Below are positions 1 through 51,634 of a stretch of 64,000 nt of DNA, in pieces. Position 1 is the stretch's first letter. Each line of letters begins with the position of its first letter. The notes under the pieces were generated by a model that did no database searches, had not been told where the DNA came from, and saw only the letters and a list, made by a program, of their open reading frames with translations. Origin of the DNA: Siphonodentalium dalli. Lineage: Eukaryota > Mollusca > Scaphopoda > Gadilida > Siphonodentaliidae. The translations under genes and the position numbers were made by a program. The DNA is taken from assembly GCA_032622095.1 (NCBI GenBank), contig CP136065.1, positions 21,626,134-21,690,133 of the forward strand, in the 5' to 3' direction.

Positions 1-132
1 CGACCGGTTGCCATAGCAACATATTTTCGGAAATCTATGATTTTGGGGGCTGTAATTTCTCTATATGACGATATGTTTGCGATATTTTGAATCAAATATA
101 AATGGTTTCCAAGTTAAATGATCCAGGAATAT
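1..132. repeat. diverged direct repeat, copy A (about 132 bp)
   Basis: This stretch matches 399-530 along its whole length with scattered substitutions. Both copies begin CGACCGGTTG, both carry TTTGGGGGCTGTAATTTC, and both end at ATGATCCAGGAATAT. Copy A may begin before the window. No coding potential is seen. Confidence 0.8.
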
Positions 133-398
133 TTTGCCAACATCTAGAACTAACCTTTCTCGAAAATCACCCATCACCGACAGAGGGCGCCATTCAAAAT
201 GGCCACCAAACCCCCGTTTTCTAACGTTAAAATGCTTACTTTTATATCATTTTATAGCAATGTATGCGTTAATTTAATGCTGGCCAGACTATTTGTCATG
301 ACATAATTCTCCACGTGACAACTCATAATATATGGGTGATCATCCGTGGTCTATAAATCTTCCAAAATTTTTGGGTAGATACATGTACCACCAACTTG

Positions 399-530
399 CG
401 ACCGGTTGACATGGCAACCGTTTTTCGGAAAATTATGCGTTTGGGGGCTGTAATTTCGTATACGAGATGTCTGCATGCGACATTTTGAATCAAATGTAAT
501 TAATTTCCAAAAAATATGATCCAGGAATAT
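399..530. repeat. diverged direct repeat, copy B
   Basis: Second copy of the repeat at 1-132, same orientation, about 270 bp downstream. The degree of divergence suggests an old duplication. The sequence between the copies (133-398) shows nothing recognisable. Confidence 0.8.
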
Positions 531-660
531 ACTTAAATTGCTCCCGCTTCTATTTCCTTCCGCTGAAGGAGTCAAGATTCACCTGCCATGGTGATTACCA
601 ACCGAAAACTTGTCTACGCGTCTACGGCTTAGGCTACTGGGCGCCGACATTTTGGAACAA

Positions 661-700
661 TGACGTCACGAATCACGTCACGCGACCCCCACGTGACGCC
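661..700. promoter_or_regulatory. cluster of CRE-like and E-box-like motifs
   Basis: Within 40 bp there are TGACGTCA (661-668, the full palindromic CRE), a second CACGTCACG, and CACGTGACG (contains the E-box CACGTG). The last two form a small inverted repeat. CREB/ATF and bHLH factors are the known families that bind such sites. A regulatory role here is inference; the cluster lies about 840 bp upstream of the OTU-like ORF. Confidence 0.3.
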
Positions 701-821
701 AAAATTAGGTTACATCTTCCTGGACCCCTCACTGAGTGATCGGCCTATATTGAATACATGCTACTATGCTCAAAACATTTAATTATAAAAGATTCATGCG
801 ATGATAACAAGTGCGTGAAGT

Positions 822-888
822 GGGAAACGGATATATCCGTTTCCCGTCCTGTAGGTAATGTTTTGGGAAACGGATATATCCGTTTCCC
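822..888. repeat. two perfect 24-bp palindromes, 43 bp apart
   Basis: GGGAAACGGATATATCCG followed by TTTCCC occurs at 822-845 and again at 865-888. Each copy is a perfect palindrome and each is followed by the same GTCCT. Together they could form hairpins or a paired binding site. No family is recognised. Confidence 0.85.
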
Positions 889-1461
889 GTCCTAAACGAG
901 TTAACGGATCCATCTTTGATAGCAATGCAATGTAACGTTGATCAAATTCGAAAATATTTTTATACATTTGACACGGGCGTCAATGAAATCACATGTCGCA
1001 TTGACGTTAAAATTGACAAATGTTTCCTGGCGTTGTGTTTTTTCAGAGACGGATCAGCATTCATATTTTTCTTGATCATTATTGCATAGCGATCAAACAA
1101 ATGTTTTTTATTTCGTTAGATCATTATCTATTATTTGGTACACATGATTGATATATTTGTTACCTCGTTAGGAAAATATGGAATGTTTTTCTAGTTTTGT
1201 TTTTGGAGATGTACATATTTTATACATAAAACTGAACACAAGAAAACATACTGAACATTTTTCTTCATCATTACAATCGATAACTTTACTTGGTCATCGT
1301 TTATGAACGAAGATGAATTCATATGTTAAAACATCTTAATTAATTGCATATACTATCATGAATTTAATCTATAACATATCGAAATAGTGAAACTAACAGA
1401 TAATGCACTGAAAAGAAACACAACGTCAGGAAGCATTTGTCATTTTTAACGTCAAAGTATT
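889..1461. other. AT-rich unique sequence without recognisable features
   Basis: No open frame, repeat or RNA gene could be supported. This is the 5' flank of the OTU-like ORF. Confidence 0.5.
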
Positions 1462-1491
1462 ATGTGCTTTCTCTACCGCCCGCACAATCGT

Positions 1492-1533
1492 AATATATGT
1501 TCAAGACGGATCTTCAGACTTATTCTACATTCA
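1492..1533 (+). promoter_or_regulatory. possible core promoter of the OTU-like gene
   Basis: AATATATG at 1492-1499 is TATA-like. About 30 bp downstream is CATTCA (1528-1533), which resembles the cap-site motif of metazoan histone genes (PyCATTCPu). If used, the leader before the ATG at 1537 would be under 10 nt, unusually short. This is suggestive mainly because of the histone-type 3' hairpin. Confidence 0.25.
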
Positions 1534-1536
1534 AAG

Positions 1537-2004
1537 ATGACTGCTGTAAACATAACAGATCTTGACGAGATAATGGTACAGGGGGTATACTGTAAAGCAG
1601 TGTGCGGCGGCGAAGAAATATCTCTGTTTTGGAGGGCACTCAGCGTTGCGGTTTACGGGACGACCGATGGATGGATGGTTCTGAGAGATGCGGCAGTTGA
1701 CCTGTACTACGCAGAGAGTGACGAACTTGGTGCGTCGGCACAAGATTTACGGCGCACACCACTTTTGGCTGAATCAAGATTGATGGTTGAATTAGCGGCG
1801 ACTGTTATACAGCGACCTATCGTCATGTTTGATGCTACCAAAGGCGGCTACAAATCAACACCAAGATTCAAGTCATCAATAACTCTAGTGTGGATCCCAC
1901 ACGTTTGCCACGAGCATTATTGTGAATGCGAAATATGGATGAGGCGAGGAGACAAATCAATTGAAGTTTTGGCGAACAAAGAAGTTCAATGTGGCGGATT
2001 CTAA
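1537..2004 (+). CDS. OTU-like (ovarian tumour protease fold) small protein, probably inactive
   Basis: A single open frame of 155 codons from the ATG at 1537 to TAA. An in-frame ATG at 1462 would give 180 residues; 1537 is preferred because it has A at -3 and lies just after a possible core promoter. Three blocks recall OTU-type cysteine proteases. SLFWRALSVAVYG matches the usual DGNCLFRAIS block, but Ser stands in the catalytic Cys position and a Trp is inserted before Arg. ELAATVIQRPIVMFDA matches the helix and strand read in OTU proteins as an E-x-x-A-L-A-N-R-P-I-x-V pattern. HEHYCECEIW near the C-terminus matches the strand with the catalytic His (HY-D/N). Length suits a bare OTU domain. 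OTU enzymes remove ubiquitin; with the Cys lost, this protein may only bind it or be a relic of a mobile-element gene. No intron is seen. The 3' end carries a histone-type stem-loop. Vertnin-like proteins share a similar block and are an alternative. Confidence 0.5.
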   Translation: MTAVNITDLDEIMVQGVYCKAVCGGEEISLFWRALSVAVYGTTDGWMVLRDAAVDLYYAESDELGASAQDLRRTPLLAESRLMVELAATVIQRPIVMFDATKGGYKSTPRFKSSITLVWIPHVCHEHYCECEIWMRRGDKSIEVLANKEVQCGGF

Positions 2005-2023
2005 ACTATAACAAAAATAAAAC

Positions 2024-2039
2024 GGCCCTTTTCAGGGCC
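2024..2039 (+). other. histone-type mRNA 3' stem-loop
   Basis: GGCCCTTTTCAGGGCC forms a 6-bp stem with a TTTC loop and fits the replication-dependent histone consensus GGYYYUNNNNARRRCC at every position. It is followed by ACCA as in histone mRNAs (ACCCA) and preceded by an A-rich run. It lies 20 nt after the stop codon, a histone-like distance. A run GAAAAGAAAA at 2051-2060 sits where the U7 snRNA-binding downstream element is expected. AATAAA at 2016-2021 could alternatively serve as a poly(A) signal. In metazoans SLBP binds this hairpin and U7 snRNP directs cleavage without polyadenylation. Confidence 0.65.
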
Positions 2040-2184
2040 ACCAAATATTCGAAAAGAAAAACTCTTGATTGCTAATTGATATTTTCCAAAGTGAGATTTT
2101 CCTTTTGAAAAAAAATAATTCTAAGTCCATTTTCATTTTTTCCGATCAGAAATATCACATCAATGACAGGAATATCTATCCTCA

Positions 2185-2320
2185 GGGGGGAACTATGGCC
2201 CAGTACCCCCCAGTGGGGGGCACTATGGCCCAGTATCGAATACTGGACGATCTATGGTCCAGTATTCGATACTGGGCCATAGTGCCCCCCACTGGGGGGT
2301 ACTGGGCCATAGTGCCCCCC
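2185..2320. repeat. long hairpin (inverted repeat, arms about 62 bp)
   Basis: The left arm (2185-2246) is the reverse complement of the right arm (2259-2320) almost throughout, around a 12-nt loop. The core of each arm is CCAGTAT-CGAATACTGG. The right arm runs into the 30-bp tandem array. Confidence 0.8.
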
Positions 2321-2410
2321 ACTGGGGGGTACTGGGCCATAGTGCCCCCCACTGGGGGGTACTGGGCCATAGTGCCCCCCACTGGGGGGTACTGGGCCAT
2401 AGTGCCCCCC
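2277..2410. repeat. 30-bp minisatellite
   Basis: Just over four identical 30-bp units made of GGGCCATAGTG, CCCCCC, ACT, GGGGGG and TACT. The period is divisible by three, so open frames occur on both strands; they are not coding. Alternating C6/G6 runs make strong local hairpins. Confidence 0.9.
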
Positions 2411-3302
2411 ATTACTACTTTGATGTCTGAATATTGTGCAATTGGTAGATATACAGCAATAATCCGAATAACAGGGATGACGGAATCTACATTGTCTATA
2501 TATATAATACTATGGCACGGATGCATATAAGGTAACATAGAATTAGATTTATTCAAGACAATATCGCAATTCGCACCAAAATTTCACTCATATTAGTATA
2601 TGGTAATTGGTATGCAGCTATGCTTTATTGCTAGACATGATTTAACATATTACATGCAAAACATATATACATATATACAAATGTGGATTAGGATGCCTAC
2701 AATGGGAGACAGACACAGGCCATTGGACCGACAACTCTATATATGCCACCAAGTCCTTTGATGTGAACCAAACATGCATTGGTACTATATGGCTATTGTT
2801 TTGCATAAATGATAAAGGGCAACGTGAACATTGCACACAGCACACCCACATCGAGAAAGCAGGGGCTAGATAAATGTATCCCCTGTGTGAGATAATTAGG
2901 ACGTGGTGAAAGTGATGCCCAAATACCCAGTCGCACGCAGATTAAGTCTTCATGCTGTATTCTCTCAGACTCATGCCATGGCTAGCTTCAAATATATAGC
3001 CACATTTTTCAATACGGCTATATTCTCAACGTAGAGAAGTTTGTGAAATTTATACACGTTTAGGTATTTCCAGTAATATTCGGGTATATACTTTTGTCTA
3101 GTTTCTGAGAAACATATGCAAGTTATCATCAGGTGATATTCGTCCCCTATTCCATTCTTACACAAGGTACATAATCTCTCTTATTTGTTCGTTTTCTTCC
3201 ACCACCCACTCTCAATGGCAAGCCTTGCTGCCTATGATTCGATACGAACATGACATTTGGAACTGATTCCCTATTCCTTATTCCTTATTTTTTTAAATGT
3301 CG
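2411..3302. other. unique sequence, no supported feature
   Basis: Only short random open frames are present. No splice-framed exon or repeat could be supported. Confidence 0.5.
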
Positions 3303-5328
3303 CTTTCGACCGATTTGACGGCATGGGTGGGTGGCCGGCCCCAAATACCACCTAGAAACACCCAGACCCCCCCCCCCACCATCACCCCCGGGGGGTGCCA
3401 CCCCGAGGGGGTGAAAATGGGGTATGGACCATTTTCGAGAACGGTAAGTATTTCGACCGATTTGACGGCATGGGTGGGTGGCCGGCCCCAAATACCACAT
3501 AGAAACACCCCGACCACCACCCATCAACCCGGGTGGGGGGGGGGGGTGCCACCGAGGGGGTGAAAATGGGGTATGGACCATTTTCGAGAACGGTAAGGAT
3601 TTCGTCCGATTTGACGGCATGGGTGGGTGGCCGGCCCCAAATACCATCTAGAAACACCCCGACCCCCCACCCATACCCCCGGGGGATGCCACCCCGAGGG
3701 GGTGAAAATGGGGTATGGACCATTTTCGAGAACGGTAAGGATTTCGACCGATTTGACGGCATGGGTGGGTGGCCGGCCCCAAATACCCCCTAGAAACACC
3801 CCGAACCCCACCATCACCCACGGGGGGGGGGGGGGGGGTGCCACCCCGAGGGGGTGAAAATGGGGCATGGACCATTTTCGAGAACGGTAAGGATTTCGAC
3901 CGATTTGATTTGACGGCATGGGTGGGTGGCCGGCCCCAAATACCCCCAAGAAACACCCCGACCCCCACCCATCACCCCCGGGGGATGCCACCCCGAGGGG
4001 GTGAAAATGGGGTATGGACCATTTTCCAGAACGGTAAGGATTTCGACCGATTTGACGGTATGGGTGGGTGGCCGGCTCCAAATACCACCTAGAAACACCC
4101 CGAACCCCACCCATCACCCACGGGGGGGGGGGTGCCACCCCGAGGGGGTGGAAATGGGGCATGGACATTTTCGAGAACGTAAAGGATTTCGACCGATTTG
4201 ACGGCATGGATGGGTGGCCGGCCTCAAATACCCCCTAGAAACACCCCGACCCCCACCCATCACCCCCGGGGGTGCCACCCCGAGGGGGTGAAAATGGGGT
4301 ATGGACCATTTTCGAGAACGGTAAGGATTTCGACCGATTTGACGGCATGGGTGGGTGGCCGGCCCCAAATACCACATAGAAACACCCCGACCACCACCCA
4401 TCAACCCCGGGGGGTGCCACCCGAGGGGGTGAAAATGGGGTATGGACCATTTTCGAGAACGGTAAGGATTTCGACCGATTTGACGGCATGGGTGGGTGGC
4501 CGGCCCCAAGTACCACCTAGAAGCACCCCCACTCCCCACCCATACCCCGGGGGATGCCACCCCGAGGGGGTGAAAATGGGGTATGGACCATTTTCGAGAA
4601 CGGTAAGGATTTCGACCGATTTGACGGTATGGGTGTGTGGCCGGCTCCAAATACCACCTAGAAACACCCCGTACCCCACACATCACCCACGGGGGGGGGG
4701 GGGGTGCCACCCCGAGGGGGTGAAAATGGGGTATGGACCATTTTCGAGAACGGTAAGGATTTCGATCGATTTGACGGCATGGGTGGGTGGCCGGCCCAAA
4801 ATACCACATAGAAACACCCCGACCCCCCACCTATCACCCCGGGGGTGCCACCCCGAGGGAGTGAAAATGGGGTATGGACCATTTTCGAGAACGGTAAAGA
4901 TTTCGACCGATTTGACGGCATGGGTGGGTGGCCGGCCCCAAATAGCACCTATAAACACCCCGACCCCCCACCCATCACACCCGGGGGGTGCCACCCGAGG
5001 GGGTGAAAATGGGGTATGGACCATTTTCGAGAACGGTAAGGATTTCGATCGATTTGACGGCATGGGTGGGTGGTCGGCCCCAAGTACCCCATAGAAACAC
5101 CCGACCCCCCACTCATCACCCACGGGGGGTGCCACCCGAGGGGGTGAAAATGGGGTATGGACCATTTTCGAGTACGGTAAGGATTTCGACCGATTTGACG
5201 GCATGGGTGGGTGGCCGACCCCAAATACTCCCTAGAAACACCCAGACCCCCCACCCATCACCCCCGGGGTGCCACCCCGAGGGGGTGAAAATCGGGTATG
5301 GACCATTTTCGAGAACGGTAAGGATTTC
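3303..5328. repeat. satellite array, about 14 units of 141-157 bp
   Basis: The landmark GCATGGGTGGGTGGCCGG recurs at 3321, 3468, 3617, 3759, 3916, 4058, 4204, 4345, 4486, 4627, 4777, 4918, 5060 and 5201. The commonest spacing is 141-142 bp. Length differences come mainly from G and C runs in the ACCCCCGGGGGGTGCCACC part and from one small duplication near 3906. Since 141 is 3 x 47, long open frames exist on both strands; these are artefacts. The array is GC-rich against an AT-rich background. Confidence 0.95.
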
Positions 5329-6784
5329 GGCTGATATTTTTAGTCTATTTTGGATACATTTATATTTTAATGCTATTATTTTCCACCCCTCAATTAGTGC
5401 TAAGTCATGCAGAGTTAGGTGGCGGGCGCTCTTCGGCTTTTGGCTAAGTTCAAAGTGTAGTATCCGTCCCCCGCTGGTGGTAGGACGGGGTCGCTATTCT
5501 TTGATACGTCCCCGACTGGTGGTTTTCCCCACCTGACGGGACTTCCACTGGATGGTTTCGCAGCTTAAGGAGGACGAGTGGTCCCGACTTACTGACTGAC
5601 TGTCCGCTCTTTGCGGGGACTGACGTTCGTCGGGCACTTTGACCATCTCGTAAGGGTGGACCACCTCTGTCAGAATACAGGAAGATTCCATTGAGTGCCC
5701 ATCTGGACGATTGTTGCAGAAAGAGTTCCATGTCTTCCCGTTCTGCAAGATGTACAAGAGCAAAATACATCGCAAGATTCGGGAAGATTTCTTCAAAATC
5801 CTGTTCAAAGCAAAACTAAATGCTGACTAATGACGTAATAGCCGGAAATGCATGGGAGAGTTATCTGCCTTGCGTCTATTACGTACGACAATAACAGTCT
5901 ACTGAAGAGTGCAATGATAAGCACGAAAGGCCTCTAGACTTACAAATGTATTAAATGATCGTTGATTTGGATCAAGTACAATAAACACGCAAGTGAACTG
6001 GACATGGATCGACATTGAGCTGGACCGAAAGAGTATCTTTTCTCGTGGAACTGTTCCTACCCCGTGTATATGTGTTTCCTTGTTTTGTTTCAACTAAATT
6101 GATTAATACATTTCCCCAAGTATTCAGATATGTAGTTCCCAGTTTAGTCCGGTATTTTTAAAAGTCTTCAGTAGGCCTATGTGGTCTAAATTATAGGTTA
6201 TAAATACATGATTACGTGCATACATGAGCATGTATACCGTGATCAAGCATATATATGGGAGGCGGGTTTCACATTTATTAAATAATTGCACTTATTAAAG
6301 CTCAATTTAAAAACTCTAACTTAATTTGCGCTGCTGAAGTGCAAACATTCACTTAAGCTCAATTATTGAGCACCACATATATACAAACGCCCTCACATTA
6401 TTATTGCCTGAATAATGACTATAGCAGGTGGCATTGTCTTAATCGTCATTTGTCATTTTTAGAAATAACAGACGTGATAAAACATAAAACAACTAGGACA
6501 TCAAGATTGTGGACCTCATTTGATCTTCGAGGAGCTAAAGCTAAGCTTGCAAAGTGGAAGTGGGTAGCGTGTAAGATAAATTTAATTGCGCTCAATTTAA
6601 GAGCAATCGTAATTGTATTACACTTTAGTTCAATTATTAATAAATGTGAAAACGCCCCCCCCCCCATATACATGCGAATGCATGTGTGGTTGCTCTGAAT
6701 ATTCAGTATATATGAGGGTTGAAATCTAGAATGCTGGGCCTATATATATAAGTTACCGTATTACAATTATAAATATTTTTTCAG
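5329..6784. other. flank and presumed 5' intron of the SEA-domain gene
   Basis: Nothing is firmly recognised. 5400-5830 is less AT-rich and open in overlapping minus-strand frames, but no motif is seen. 6300-6665 has AT-rich segments. The missing upstream exon, which must end in phase 1, could not be located here. Confidence 0.4.
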
Positions 6785-8344: not shown

Positions 8345-8605
8345 CTGGCTGTTATTGTTATTTTAACGGAATTCTGAGTTGGTCATTCGCAAAACCAATA
8401 TGTTTTATATTCTAGATTACAATCTTGGGTATATAATATATTATCTTGAGCGCGTTACCATTTCTGACATTGGTTTTCTTGTTTACGCCACCGGTGTAAT
8501 ATGTTCTCGAAAATTGAATAACGCTTGGTCCAATGGGCGATTGAATTATGGGTAATTAGGTAGTTTCGTACCTGACTCAATCGTACCGATAGAGTCACGT
8601 ACAGG
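8345..8605. repeat. dispersed repeat fragment (shared with 9.9, 13.5 and 38.7 kb)
   Basis: Carries TTTTAACGGAATTCTGAG, GCGTTACCATTTCTGAC and GCCACCGGTGTAATATGTTCT in order, then GTACCTGACTCAATCGTACC. The same blocks occur at 9942-10050 and its two duplicates, at 13508-13560 and at 37866-38830. An old interspersed family of unknown class. Confidence 0.65.
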
Positions 8606-9496
8606 CTGAAATTGTAAACTTAAAGGGACGCTTTGATTATTGCGACATAACGAAGATGCGGGCCCCGTTGGTTCAGAGTGCCCGGAAGAAGATAATTAAT
8701 CGAGTGTGTTTATCACAGTACGCGCTAACTGCTCGCCTTCCTATCGCCTGGTACCATAACACGCTGTGTATAGCAGTCTCTTGGAAAACAGACGAAATTC
8801 ATAAACGATGTACATCTGTTAGGAATTTCGTCGGCTTTTCAAAGAGACAGGCTATTTGGCCATGCGTTTGTCACAACAGACCTGTTTCTTGCGTGCTTGT
8901 ATAATTCGTGTTTTATTGATAGTAATGATGAAAAGAGTAACGAATTGTATTAATCGAATAATAAAAATGAAGTTATATAGTTTGCCGTATCGTAATCAGG
9001 ATGGACTTTATTTTACCTACGGACTGTTCATTCTTGAAAGTGCAGCCTACTCGTAGAGTAAAACTGGGAATTATGCTTGATTCATATCAAGGCGACGTCC
9101 AGTCGCGGGATGTTGGCCAGTTTCTGGGCCGAGGCCAGGGGCGTACACTGACGATGGCGGGGTTGTTGACGAGGGTGTCACGCGTGCAAATATATAGTGA
9201 CATTAGCATTAACCTTTACTAATAAAAATAAACTGAGTTCGTGTGTCTGTCAGGCAAAAGGCGACAAAACGACTGAACCCCTCTGAAAATGTGTACATGG
9301 GGTCATAGCATGCACGTGACCCGGGGATTAAGGGCGCTAATAATGTTTATAACTTTGGCTATATATAGGCGATCAAACGGACGGGCAGATCGGCAGATTT
9401 TTTAAAATTTGATCATTTTTTTGAATTTGGGAATAGATTTTTAAAACTTGTTTTGCTTTATCCTATTTTATGGATGTTAGTTTTGAAGACTATTAT

Positions 9497-23129: not shown

Positions 23130-24850
23130 TTACCAAATAAACGGTGCGGTAGGGTGGCCCACCCGAAAATAACATATAATAACCGAAAACCGCAACCCTC
23201 TAGCCCGTGCGGTTGCCACAGTAGGTGGCCAAAGTTGCAACCATAGCCGTTTGGGCATTTATGAACCGATTTGGACCAAATAAACGGTGGTCAATGGTGG
23301 CCCACCCGAAAATAACATATAATAACCGAAAACCACAACCCTCTAGCCCGTTGTGGTTGCCACAGTAGGTGGCCAAAGTGGCAACCATAGCCGTTTGGGC
23401 ATTTATGAACCGATTTGGACAAAATAAACGGTACGGTAGGGTGGCCCACCCGAAAATAACATATAATAACCGAAAACCGCAACCGTCTAGCCCGTGTGGT
23501 TGCTACAGTAGGTGGCCAAAGTGGCAACCATAGCCGTTTGGGCATTTATGAACCGATTTGGACCAAATAAACGGTGATCAAGGGTGGCCCACCCGAAAAT
23601 AACATATAATAACCGAAAACCGCAACCCTCTAGCCCGTGCGTTTGCCACAGTAGGTGGCCAACGTGGCAACCATAGCCGTTTGGGCATTTATGAACCGAT
23701 TTGGACCAAATAAACGGTGCGGTAGGGTGGCCCACCCGAAAATAACATATAATAACCGAAACCGCAACCCTCTAGCCAGTGCGGTTGCCACAGTAGTCAG
23801 TAGGTGGCCAACGTGGCAACCATAGCCGTTTGGGCATTTATGAACCGATTTGGACCAAATAAACGGTGATCAAGGGTGGCCCACCCGAAAATAACATATA
23901 AAAACCGAAACCACAACCCTCTAGTCCGTGCGGTTGCCACAGTAGGTGGCCAATGTGGCAACCATAGCCGTTTGGGAATTTATGAACCGATTTGGACCAA
24001 ATAAACGGTGCGGTCGGGTGGCCCACCCGAAAATAACATATAATAACCGAAAACCACAACCCTCTAGCCCGTGCGGTTGCCACAGTAGGTGGCCAAAGTG
24101 GCAACCATAGCCGTTTGGGCATTTATGAACCGATTTGGACCAAATAAACGGTGCGGTATGGTGGCCCACCCGAAAATAACATATAATAACCGAAAACCGC
24201 AACCCTGTAGCCCGTGCGGTTGTTACAGTAGGTGGCCAAAGTGGCAACCATAGCCGTTTGGGCATTTATGAACCGATTTGGACCAAATAAACGGTAGTAA
24301 AGTGTGACCCACCCGAAAATAACATATAATAACCGAATACCGCAACCCTCTAGCCCGTGCGGTTGCCACAGTAGGTGGCCAAAGTGGCAACAATAGCCGT
24401 TTGGGTATTTATGAACCGATTTGGACCAAATAAACGGTGCGGTAGGATGGCCCACCCCAAAATTAGATATAAAACAGGAAACCGCACCCCTGTAGCCCGT
24501 GTGGTTGCCACGGGGGGTGGCTAAAGTGGCAACCATAGCCGTTTTGGTATTTATGAACCTATTCGTACCAAATAAATGGTGCTGTAGGATGGCCCACCCC
24601 AAAATTAGATATAAAAAACCGAAAACCGCACCCTCTAGCCCGTGCGGTTCATTTTATAGAGGTTGCCGTTAGAATATAAGGTAAATTAGATATAAAAACA
24701 GAAAACCGCACCCCTGTAGCCCGTGTGGTTGCCACAGGAGGTGGCTAAAGTGGCAACCATAGCCGTTTTGGTATTTATGAACCGATTCGTACCAAATAAA
24801 CGGTGCGGTAGGATAGCCCACCCCAAAATTAGATATAAAAAAAAGAAAAA
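23130..24850. repeat. satellite array, about 12 units of ~143 bp
   Basis: CCAAATAAACGGTG recurs at 23133, 23276, 23420, 23563, 23706, 23855, 23997, 24140, 24283, 24426, 24568 and 24792. The usual spacing is 142-144 bp. Units contain GGTGGCCCACCCGAAAATAA, ACCGCAACCCTCTAGCCCGT and GTGGCAACCATAGCCGTTT. The last two units are diverged and rearranged (spacing 224 bp, with a duplicated piece at 24680-24750). Long minus-strand frames are artefacts. Confidence 0.95.
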
Positions 24851-50636: not shown

Positions 50637-50682
50637 CGTATCATTCTGAACATAAAGTGTAATCGGTTCATTTACCATCTAT

Positions 50683-51517
50683 CCCTCATGTCTCCATTGT
50701 CCTTCAGCTGTTATTGTTTTCTCTATCCCTCATGTCTCCGTTGTCCTTCAGCTGTTATTGTTTTATCTATCCCTCATGTCTCCGTTGTCCTTCAGCTTTT
50801 ATTGTTTTCTCTATCCCTCATGTCTCCGTTGTCCTTCAGCTGTTATTGTTTTATCTATCCCTCATGTCTCCGTTGTCCTTCAGCTGTTATTGTTTTCTCT
50901 ATCCCTCATGTCTCCGTTGTCCTTTAGCTGTTATTGTTTTATCTATCGCTCATGTCTCCATTGTCCTTCAGCTGTTATTGTTTTCTCTATCCCTCATGTC
51001 TCCATTGTCCTTCAGCTGTTATTGTTTTATCTATCCCTCATGTCTCCATTGTCCTTCAGCTGTTATTGTTTCATATATCCCTCATATCTCCGTTGTCCTT
51101 CAGCTGTTATTGTTTCATCTATCCCGCATGTCTCCGTTGTCCTTCAGCTGTTATTGTTTTCTCTATCCCTCATGTCTCCATTGTCCTTCAGCTGTTATTG
51201 TGTTATTTATCCCTCATGTCTCCATTGTCCTTCAGCTGTTATTGTTTTATCTATCCCTCATGTCTCCATTGTCCTTCAGCTGTTATTGTTTTATCTATCC
51301 CTCATGTCTCCATTGTCCTTCAGCTGTTATTGTTTCATCTATCCCTCATGTCTCCGTTGTCCTTCAGCTGTTATTGTTTCATCTATCCCGCATGTCTCCG
51401 TTGTCCTTCAGCTGTTATTGTTTCGTCTATCCCTCATGTCTCCGTTGTCCTTCAGCTGTTATTGTTTCATATATCCCTCATGTCTCCGTTGTCCTTCAGC
51501 TGTTATTGTTTAATATA
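50683..51517. repeat. 44-bp minisatellite, 19 units
   Basis: CCCTCATGTCTCC starts units at 50683 to 51475 at exactly 44-bp steps without a single indel. Variation is limited to substitutions at a few sites (CCATTG/CCGTTG, TTTTATC/TTTTCTC/TTTCATC). The absence of stops leaves all three plus frames open, giving false long ORFs. Confidence 0.95.
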
Positions 51518-51634
51518 TCATACTCTGTCTATCTTTCTCTACTGACACATTGTCACCTGTTCCCTCAAATACGCCATTCCTATTTTATCTAATGCTTCCA
51601 CAGCCCAGGCCTGATAACAAGGTGCCTGTCAATT

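Follow-up and report, generated by a model that had tools for sequence, protein, structure and literature searches.

Histone-type stem-loops behind a block of accessory genes in a Polinton of the scaphopod Siphonodentalium dalli

Replication-dependent histone genes of Metazoa end in a stem-loop a short distance past the stop codon, after which come an ACCA-like cleavage motif and a downstream element rich in purines (RF00032; SLBP/U7). Among animal protein-coding mRNAs such 3' ends are described as confined to histones (PMC6303110). Polintons, or Mavericks, are elements of about 17 kb that possess a PolB polymerase, an rve integrase with chromodomain, an A32-like ATPase and an adenain-like protease, with terminal inverted repeats starting 5'-AG and a 6 bp target duplication. 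Adintoviruses, as treated in PMC11071296, include OTU-like PolB N-termini and accessory genes defined by motifs.

The Siphonodentalium dalli element described here shares all of these Polinton features, and differs from Polintons/Mavericks in four accessory genes (A to D) that have a common promoter module and histone-type stem-loop ends. These ends are like those of metazoan histone genes in stem-loop, ACCA-like sequence, purine-rich element and short stop-to-stem gap; unlike replication-dependent histone genes, genes A to D are non-histone and lie inside a mobile element. Polintons or viruses with histone-type mRNA ends were not found among the listed titles and abstract openings of open-licence papers, and the terms "stem-loop", "hairpin" and "polyadenylation" are absent from the main text of PMC11071296 on adintoviruses. 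As far as this limited open-licence check goes, it suggests that histone-type 3' ends on a whole block of Polinton genes have not been reported previously.

The Polinton and its copies

Gene A is the terminal gene of a recently amplified Polinton/Maverick of adintovirus type, the right end of which lies at the start of the window, i.e. the whole analysed stretch of 64,000 nucleotides (C5:21626134-21690133) of the 2.23 Gb genome (9 contigs). Features of this end are listed in Table 1. The gene content of the element, assembled from pieces of several copies, comprises a PolB of 1393 aa with the feature of family-B polymerases of the presumably protein-primed type (Pfam DNA_pol_B_2, E 5.6e-34), a retrovirus-like integrase core (rve, E 5.1e-13) and a chromodomain (Chromo, E 2.3e-5, its 24.7 bits just short of the cut-off of 25.1), these two read from two pieces that belong to different copies, an A32-type packaging ATPase (Pox_A32, E 3.6e-8) and an adenain-like protease (Peptidase_C5, E 5e-4), a borderline assignment because its 20.2 bits face a cut-off of 21.3. 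Two candidates (L032:6661-7965 and 8348-9199) for the double-jelly-roll major and single-jelly-roll minor capsid proteins occupy the expected place, with no match in Pfam and no relevant sequence match in PDB. The terminal inverted repeats begin 5'-AG (ends 5'-AGTAGTAATGGGG), and one copy measured end to end has 17,131 bp. Target duplications of 6 bp flank four of five copies checked (GCTGCT, GGAGTG, TCTATA and, in the window copy, TTGATG); the copy L014/L032 has no matching one. Searches of viral contigs with PolB (14 pattern-matching stretches, none confirmed), the ATPase, gene A and the hairpin pattern yielded no relatives.

Table 1. Features of the Polinton right end and its surroundings, in window positions
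Feature	Position	Strand	Remarks
Nested insertion, 3' part	1..900		1,122 bp between TTAA copies, C5:21625912-21627033; window starts within
Polinton copy, right-end part	901..2419		by alignment to other copies; only this end inside the window
Gene B start, interrupted here	901..913	-	intact copies: 162 aa, histone stem-loop 22 nt past stop
Promoter module, gene-B side	985..1065	-	blastn; one such module in front of each of genes A to D
Promoter module, gene-A side	1416..1490	+	blastn
Gene A	1537..2004	+	155 aa, accessory Polinton protein without assigned family; stop ends at 2004
Histone-type stem-loop GGCCCTTTTCAGGGCC	2024..2039	+	6-bp stem, 4-nt loop; 19 nt between gene-A stop and stem
ACCA	2040..2043	+	directly 3' of stem; predicted cleavage here or just past, by analogy with histone pre-mRNAs
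Histone-downstream-element-like purine run GAAAAGAAAAACT	2051..2063	+	purine stretch AAAAGAAAAA at 2052-2061
Right terminal repeat	2180..2419		palindromic GGGGGGCACTATGGCCCAGTAC units, ends ...CCATTACTACT; inner boundary approximate
Target-site duplication TTGATG	2420..2425		6 bp; matches C5:21610263-21610268 on the left

The whole window copy spans C5:21610269-21628552 (about 18.3 kb including the nested 1.1-kb insertion), with a left terminal repeat upstream and PolB at C5:21618958-21621360. Truncation near window position 895-900 was considered and rejected, since the copy has both ends and the nested insertion. The latter interrupts gene B, possesses 13-bp inverted ends (CTCGTTTGGGACG / CGTCCTAAACGAG, one mismatch) and presumably resembles a piggyBac-type non-autonomous element. 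The terminal repeats are nested palindromes, and the distance from gene A to the right end varies among copies. Elsewhere the window contains long tandem arrays at 3304-5329, 23132-24649 and 50677-51519, with units of 141, 143 and 44 bp.

Going inward from the right end, the right arm consists of genes A, B (162 aa), C (62 aa), D (116-120 aa) and E, a zinc knuckle gene; A, C and E read rightward, B and D leftward. Gene E lies at offsets of about -3687 to -2989 relative to gene A in L069, and at L031:7681-8091. In L068 and L069 it shares its MFKRIKRPVSDD... N-terminus with PolB, which is encoded on the other strand, and its start reads as an inverted duplication of the PolB 5' end.

Copies are numerous and young. 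In a genome search with PolB at least 56 matches were scored among 2459 candidates, and with protein A at least 150 among 675; among these 150 scored gene-A matches, 72 show 100% protein identity, others 98-99% and a second group 95-97%, and an internal stop occurs in two. The genome contains 182 exact copies of the 40-nt hairpin tail of gene A and 248 of the 39-nt gene-C tail, against none for the reversed-pattern controls, so that the same ORF-hairpin pair, which the first-pass annotation had proposed to look for elsewhere, does recur. Its idea of an ORF that had landed beside a histone gene fragment is not supported, because ORF and hairpin move as one unit in many dispersed copies. Nor did homologous ORFs without the hairpin turn up among 37 gene-A copies, a biased sample because 30 of them were picked by the search as best protein matches: 35 possess the exact hairpin and two differ by one base, including L001 (RF00032 29.8 bits, below gathering). 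The exact B hairpin is found in 28 and the second C hairpin in 29 of the 30 loci L001-L030; one of these loci, L024, is the window copy, whose piece runs into the insertion. Because the copies are so recent, hairpin conservation within a subfamily says little. Three loci (L004, L071, L072) miss part of the right arm and have shorter arms; in L038 and L039 the D frames are broken and end early, with a longer stop-to-hairpin distance.

Histone-type signals behind genes A to D

The hairpin, the ACCA and the purine-rich run that had been noted 3' of the 155-aa ORF are all there. The Rfam model Histone3 (RF00032), suggested earlier as a check, matches window 2019-2065 with 41.8 bits (E = 6e-9), above its gathering threshold of 34, and this is the sole gathering-level Rfam match in the 64 kb on both strands. 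The bare 16-nt hairpin pattern has a chance expectation of 0.16 with at most one mismatch (one exact match was found), which places the evidential weight on the context and recurrence of the hairpin. A covariance model of host H2A, H2B and H4 3' ends gives the site 52.5 bits (E = 1.1e-8; E-values of this model are rough). A chance hairpin is ruled out by the RF00032 score together with the host-histone model: the gene-A hairpin with its context is not chance.

The ORF itself is not recognisable as the "OTU-like" protein of the first-pass annotation. Gene A is simply an open frame of 155 aa without Pfam domains even at E <= 10, and its 15 PDB matches at E <= 1 are all to ribosomal protein L3 (E 0.05-0.26), none of them meaningful and none an OTU; an OTU protease by sequence was rejected on these grounds. 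Derivation of gene A as a copy of part of the element's PolB was likewise discarded, as there is no real match to that PolB. No histone identity emerges from a Pfam scan of A, B and D, which gave no match for any of them, and the proteins A to D are mutually unrelated (no blastp match at E <= 10).

All four genes possess a stem-loop in sense orientation, 19 (A), 22 (B), 13 (C) and 19 nt (D) past the stop in L069, with RF00032 scores of 41.8, 40.1, 37.1 and 42.6 bits, all above gathering. A gene-B frame, for example, ends at the hairpin L003:3095-3139. Gene C has two hairpins in tandem, the first of which reaches 22.2 bits, below gathering, and is without a downstream element; the second has a compensatory stem change (GGTCC/GGACC). 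The stem is followed by ACACA in B and by AACCA in C. Other Histone3 matches at E <= 1 are absent from the polymerase, ATPase, protease, capsid-region and integrase parts of two copies (L031, L032). The earlier suggestion of a mobile-element gene with a histone-type 3' end is thus upheld at sequence level, and extends to four adjoining Polinton genes.

Polyadenylation signals are distributed unevenly. Gene A has an AATAAA 11 nt past its stop, and because this precedes the hairpin, its mRNA could alternatively or additionally be polyadenylated. In B and D neither AATAAA nor ATTAAA occurs within 300 nt, and none is seen from the C stop to the C hairpins. Gene E has an AATAAA 31 nt past the stop (L031). 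Core genes possess one of the two signals within 300 nt in seven of 12 cases and lack them in five; our guess is that the core genes are polyadenylated.

The promoter module, GAAATCACATGTCGCATTGACGTTAAAATTGACAAATG..., precedes each of the four genes, which form two divergent pairs. Elsewhere, L032 and the rest of the window gave 14-15-nt matches only, and three host histone loci none. Between the intergenic regions B|A and D|C the identity amounts to 93% over 571 bp, so the arm has been duplicated. B and D have 98 nt of homologous 3' region around the hairpin in common, and A and C each have 22-24 nt (hairpin and edges) plus short 11-18-nt matches in common with the others. From the B/D homology and the duplication, at most three origins follow for the ends (A, C and B/D).

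Diverged copies extend the comparison. The D copies L092 and L094, at dS 0.24 and 0.20 from the reference L031, keep the hairpin and most of the downstream element; in the hairpin of L094 a C-to-T change keeps a G-U pair. Their dN/dS values are 0.22 and 0.37, respectively, and a diverged B copy (L093) has 0.62. Between subfamilies dN/dS is 0.09 for B and 0.48 for A; all five values come from few changes.

Likeness to host histone 3' ends

In a genome-wide RF00032 search at least 75 matches were scored among 409,530 candidates. The five best of these 75 are gene-D ends (44.2 and four at 43.2 bits; host H2B 42.2), and another three that were read belong to B or D genes in copies of greater divergence; Histone3 matches therefore do not always mark histone genes. 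A histone array lies at C5:111.4-111.7 Mb, where 25 loci were read: an H2B ORF with hairpin is present in all 25, an H4-type hairpin in 25 (21 with an H4 ORF found) and H2A in 10. Another array among the RF00032 matches is located at C8:156 Mb. Host H4, H2A and H2B possess ACCA or ACCCA 3' of the stem.

With three host sequences (H4, H2A and H2B) as its basis, the covariance model finds 13 sites at E <= 1 in 125,069 bases. Twelve of them are ends of genes A to D in the window, L002, L031, L065 and L069, and one is a gene end in a tandem array. The first of the two C hairpins is not found by this host-only model, and the window has no site outside the A-D ends.

Likeness continues past the stem. 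Over the following 30 nt gene C has 25 unshifted positions in common with host H2B, as many as 0 of 79,390 background windows reach; B and D each agree with host H2B at 21 (2 of 79,390), A with host H4 at 19 (3 of 79,390) and C with H4 at 18 (28 of 79,390); host H4 and host H2B agree with each other at 19. Near background are B-H4 and A-H2B (15/30 each) and D-H4 (13/30). The downstream element of A to D matches the host histone element in sequence and at about the host spacing, the A-rich core of gene A lying 12 nt past the stem vs 13 nt in host H2A/H2B.

The host possesses an SLBP RNA-binding domain: PF15247 matches two pieces within C2:174249081-174253053, the better one with E 3.1e-13. The same profile matches 0 of 14 control genomes, a weak control as all are prokaryotes. 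A host U7 snRNA was not identified, with a best Rfam score of 26.8 bits (cut-off 34) and pattern scans giving 234 matches with the longer and nine with the shorter spacer (reversed controls 72 and 14), the candidates read being unconvincing as U7 genes. Invertebrate U7 is short and variable, so this failure does not amount to absence of U7.

Proposed processing of the accessory mRNAs

The signals stand just past the stops, resemble host histone 3' ends and are repeated over unrelated proteins in a host with an SLBP domain. Quite probably, A to D are Polinton accessory genes whose replication-dependent-histone-type 3' signals are used via the host SLBP/U7 for poly(A)-less S-phase mRNAs. Processing by host SLBP/U7 into such mRNAs would be their most likely fate, and functional use of the histone-type ends is, judged from the nucleotide sequences, likely but unproven. 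Host SLBP would bind the hairpins of A to D, the U7 snRNP would pair with the downstream element, and cleavage would take place 4-5 nt past the stem. The resulting mRNAs would be capped, poly(A)-less, stable and translated mainly in S phase, or, as an alternative timing, in oocytes and early embryos, where histone mRNAs are kept in store. The polymerase, ATPase, integrase and capsid-region genes would use other 3' ends. Accessory or early gene expression would thereby be tied to host DNA replication, and an element replicating its own DNA would have its accessory proteins present when replication resources are high.

Protein B contains LPCKE (LXCXE) followed by an acidic stretch in all 31 copies with the frame found (46 loci scanned), and LPCKE is present in the diverged copy L093 too; LXCXE arises in 1.5% of shuffles of protein B. 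LXCXE is the binding motif for pocket proteins (Rb). Gene B may, speculatively, push cells into S phase, because it has this motif. With LXCXE and acidic stretch it is like the "Oncoid" accessory genes of small DNA tumour-type viruses as presented in PMC11071296; in that source, what makes a gene a member of the class is the possession of short linear motifs of interest, and gene B is likened to the class by its motif. Whether the element has two mRNA classes by 3' end, S-phase A-D and core genes, with SLBP/U7 as a cell-cycle switch for its life cycle and an S-phase-promoting LXCXE protein in support, is about evenly balanced in our judgement.

Other readings of the same hairpins have to be weighed against SLBP/U7 processing. 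They might be histone-derived and act after export on otherwise polyadenylated mRNAs, for example by making translation or stability dependent on SLBP or by serving as decoys for it; the AATAAA 5' of the gene-A hairpin and the additional C hairpin without downstream element could indicate this. We regard this as unlikely, for a downstream element at about the host spacing is kept after all four genes, and the signals for polyadenylation are missing within 300 nt of B and D and from the C stop to the C hairpins. Cleavage takes the histone downstream element off the transcript, and we know of no function for it in the mature mRNA.

It is very unlikely that a single histone 3' end was acquired once next to an accessory gene, multiplied when the arm was duplicated and is functionless now. 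The B|A and D|C duplication, the 98 nt common to B and D and the youth of the element, with its 72 identical proteins among 150 scored matches, are what such hitch-hiking would leave; yet A and C have little more than the hairpin and its edges in common with the others, the D copies at dS 0.24 and 0.20 keep the signals, and the hairpins stand in sense 13-22 nt past all four stops of the measured copy (farther in the two copies with broken D frames). A role of the hairpin at the level of DNA or replication, or a chance palindrome of palindrome-rich element ends, is hardly credible: terminal repeats full of palindromes and sub-threshold miRNA-precursor matches would speak for it, but the terminal palindromes are unrelated in sequence, the loop, the flanking ACC and the downstream element agree with the histone model, and the sites follow stops in a strand-specific manner.

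If SLBP/U7 processing holds, the histone 3' signal set would be portable and sufficient to recruit the pathway for a whole block of unrelated genes, and the element would be, within our limited literature check, the first known virus-like element to take over replication-coupled mRNA processing. A self-replicating element would have a concrete reason for coupling its genes to S phase or to the histone mRNAs that oocytes and early embryos keep in store. The A-D ends also offer a natural way of finding out which sequence features are enough for processing by SLBP and U7.

Apart from the Polinton, an array at C8:110911984-111425066 contains 34 exact AACGGCTCTTTTCAGAGCCAA sites (reversed control 0), often spaced by about 2.36 or 3.8 kb. 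The only unit read, L090:364-717 (+), has a 117-aa ORF with no Pfam match over cut-off and no relevant PDB match. Its hairpin, which is the array site found by the host-only model, is located at 766, 48 nt past the stop, and followed by GAAAAGAGAGCTCTT; the array thus apparently is a second non-histone gene with a histone stem-loop.
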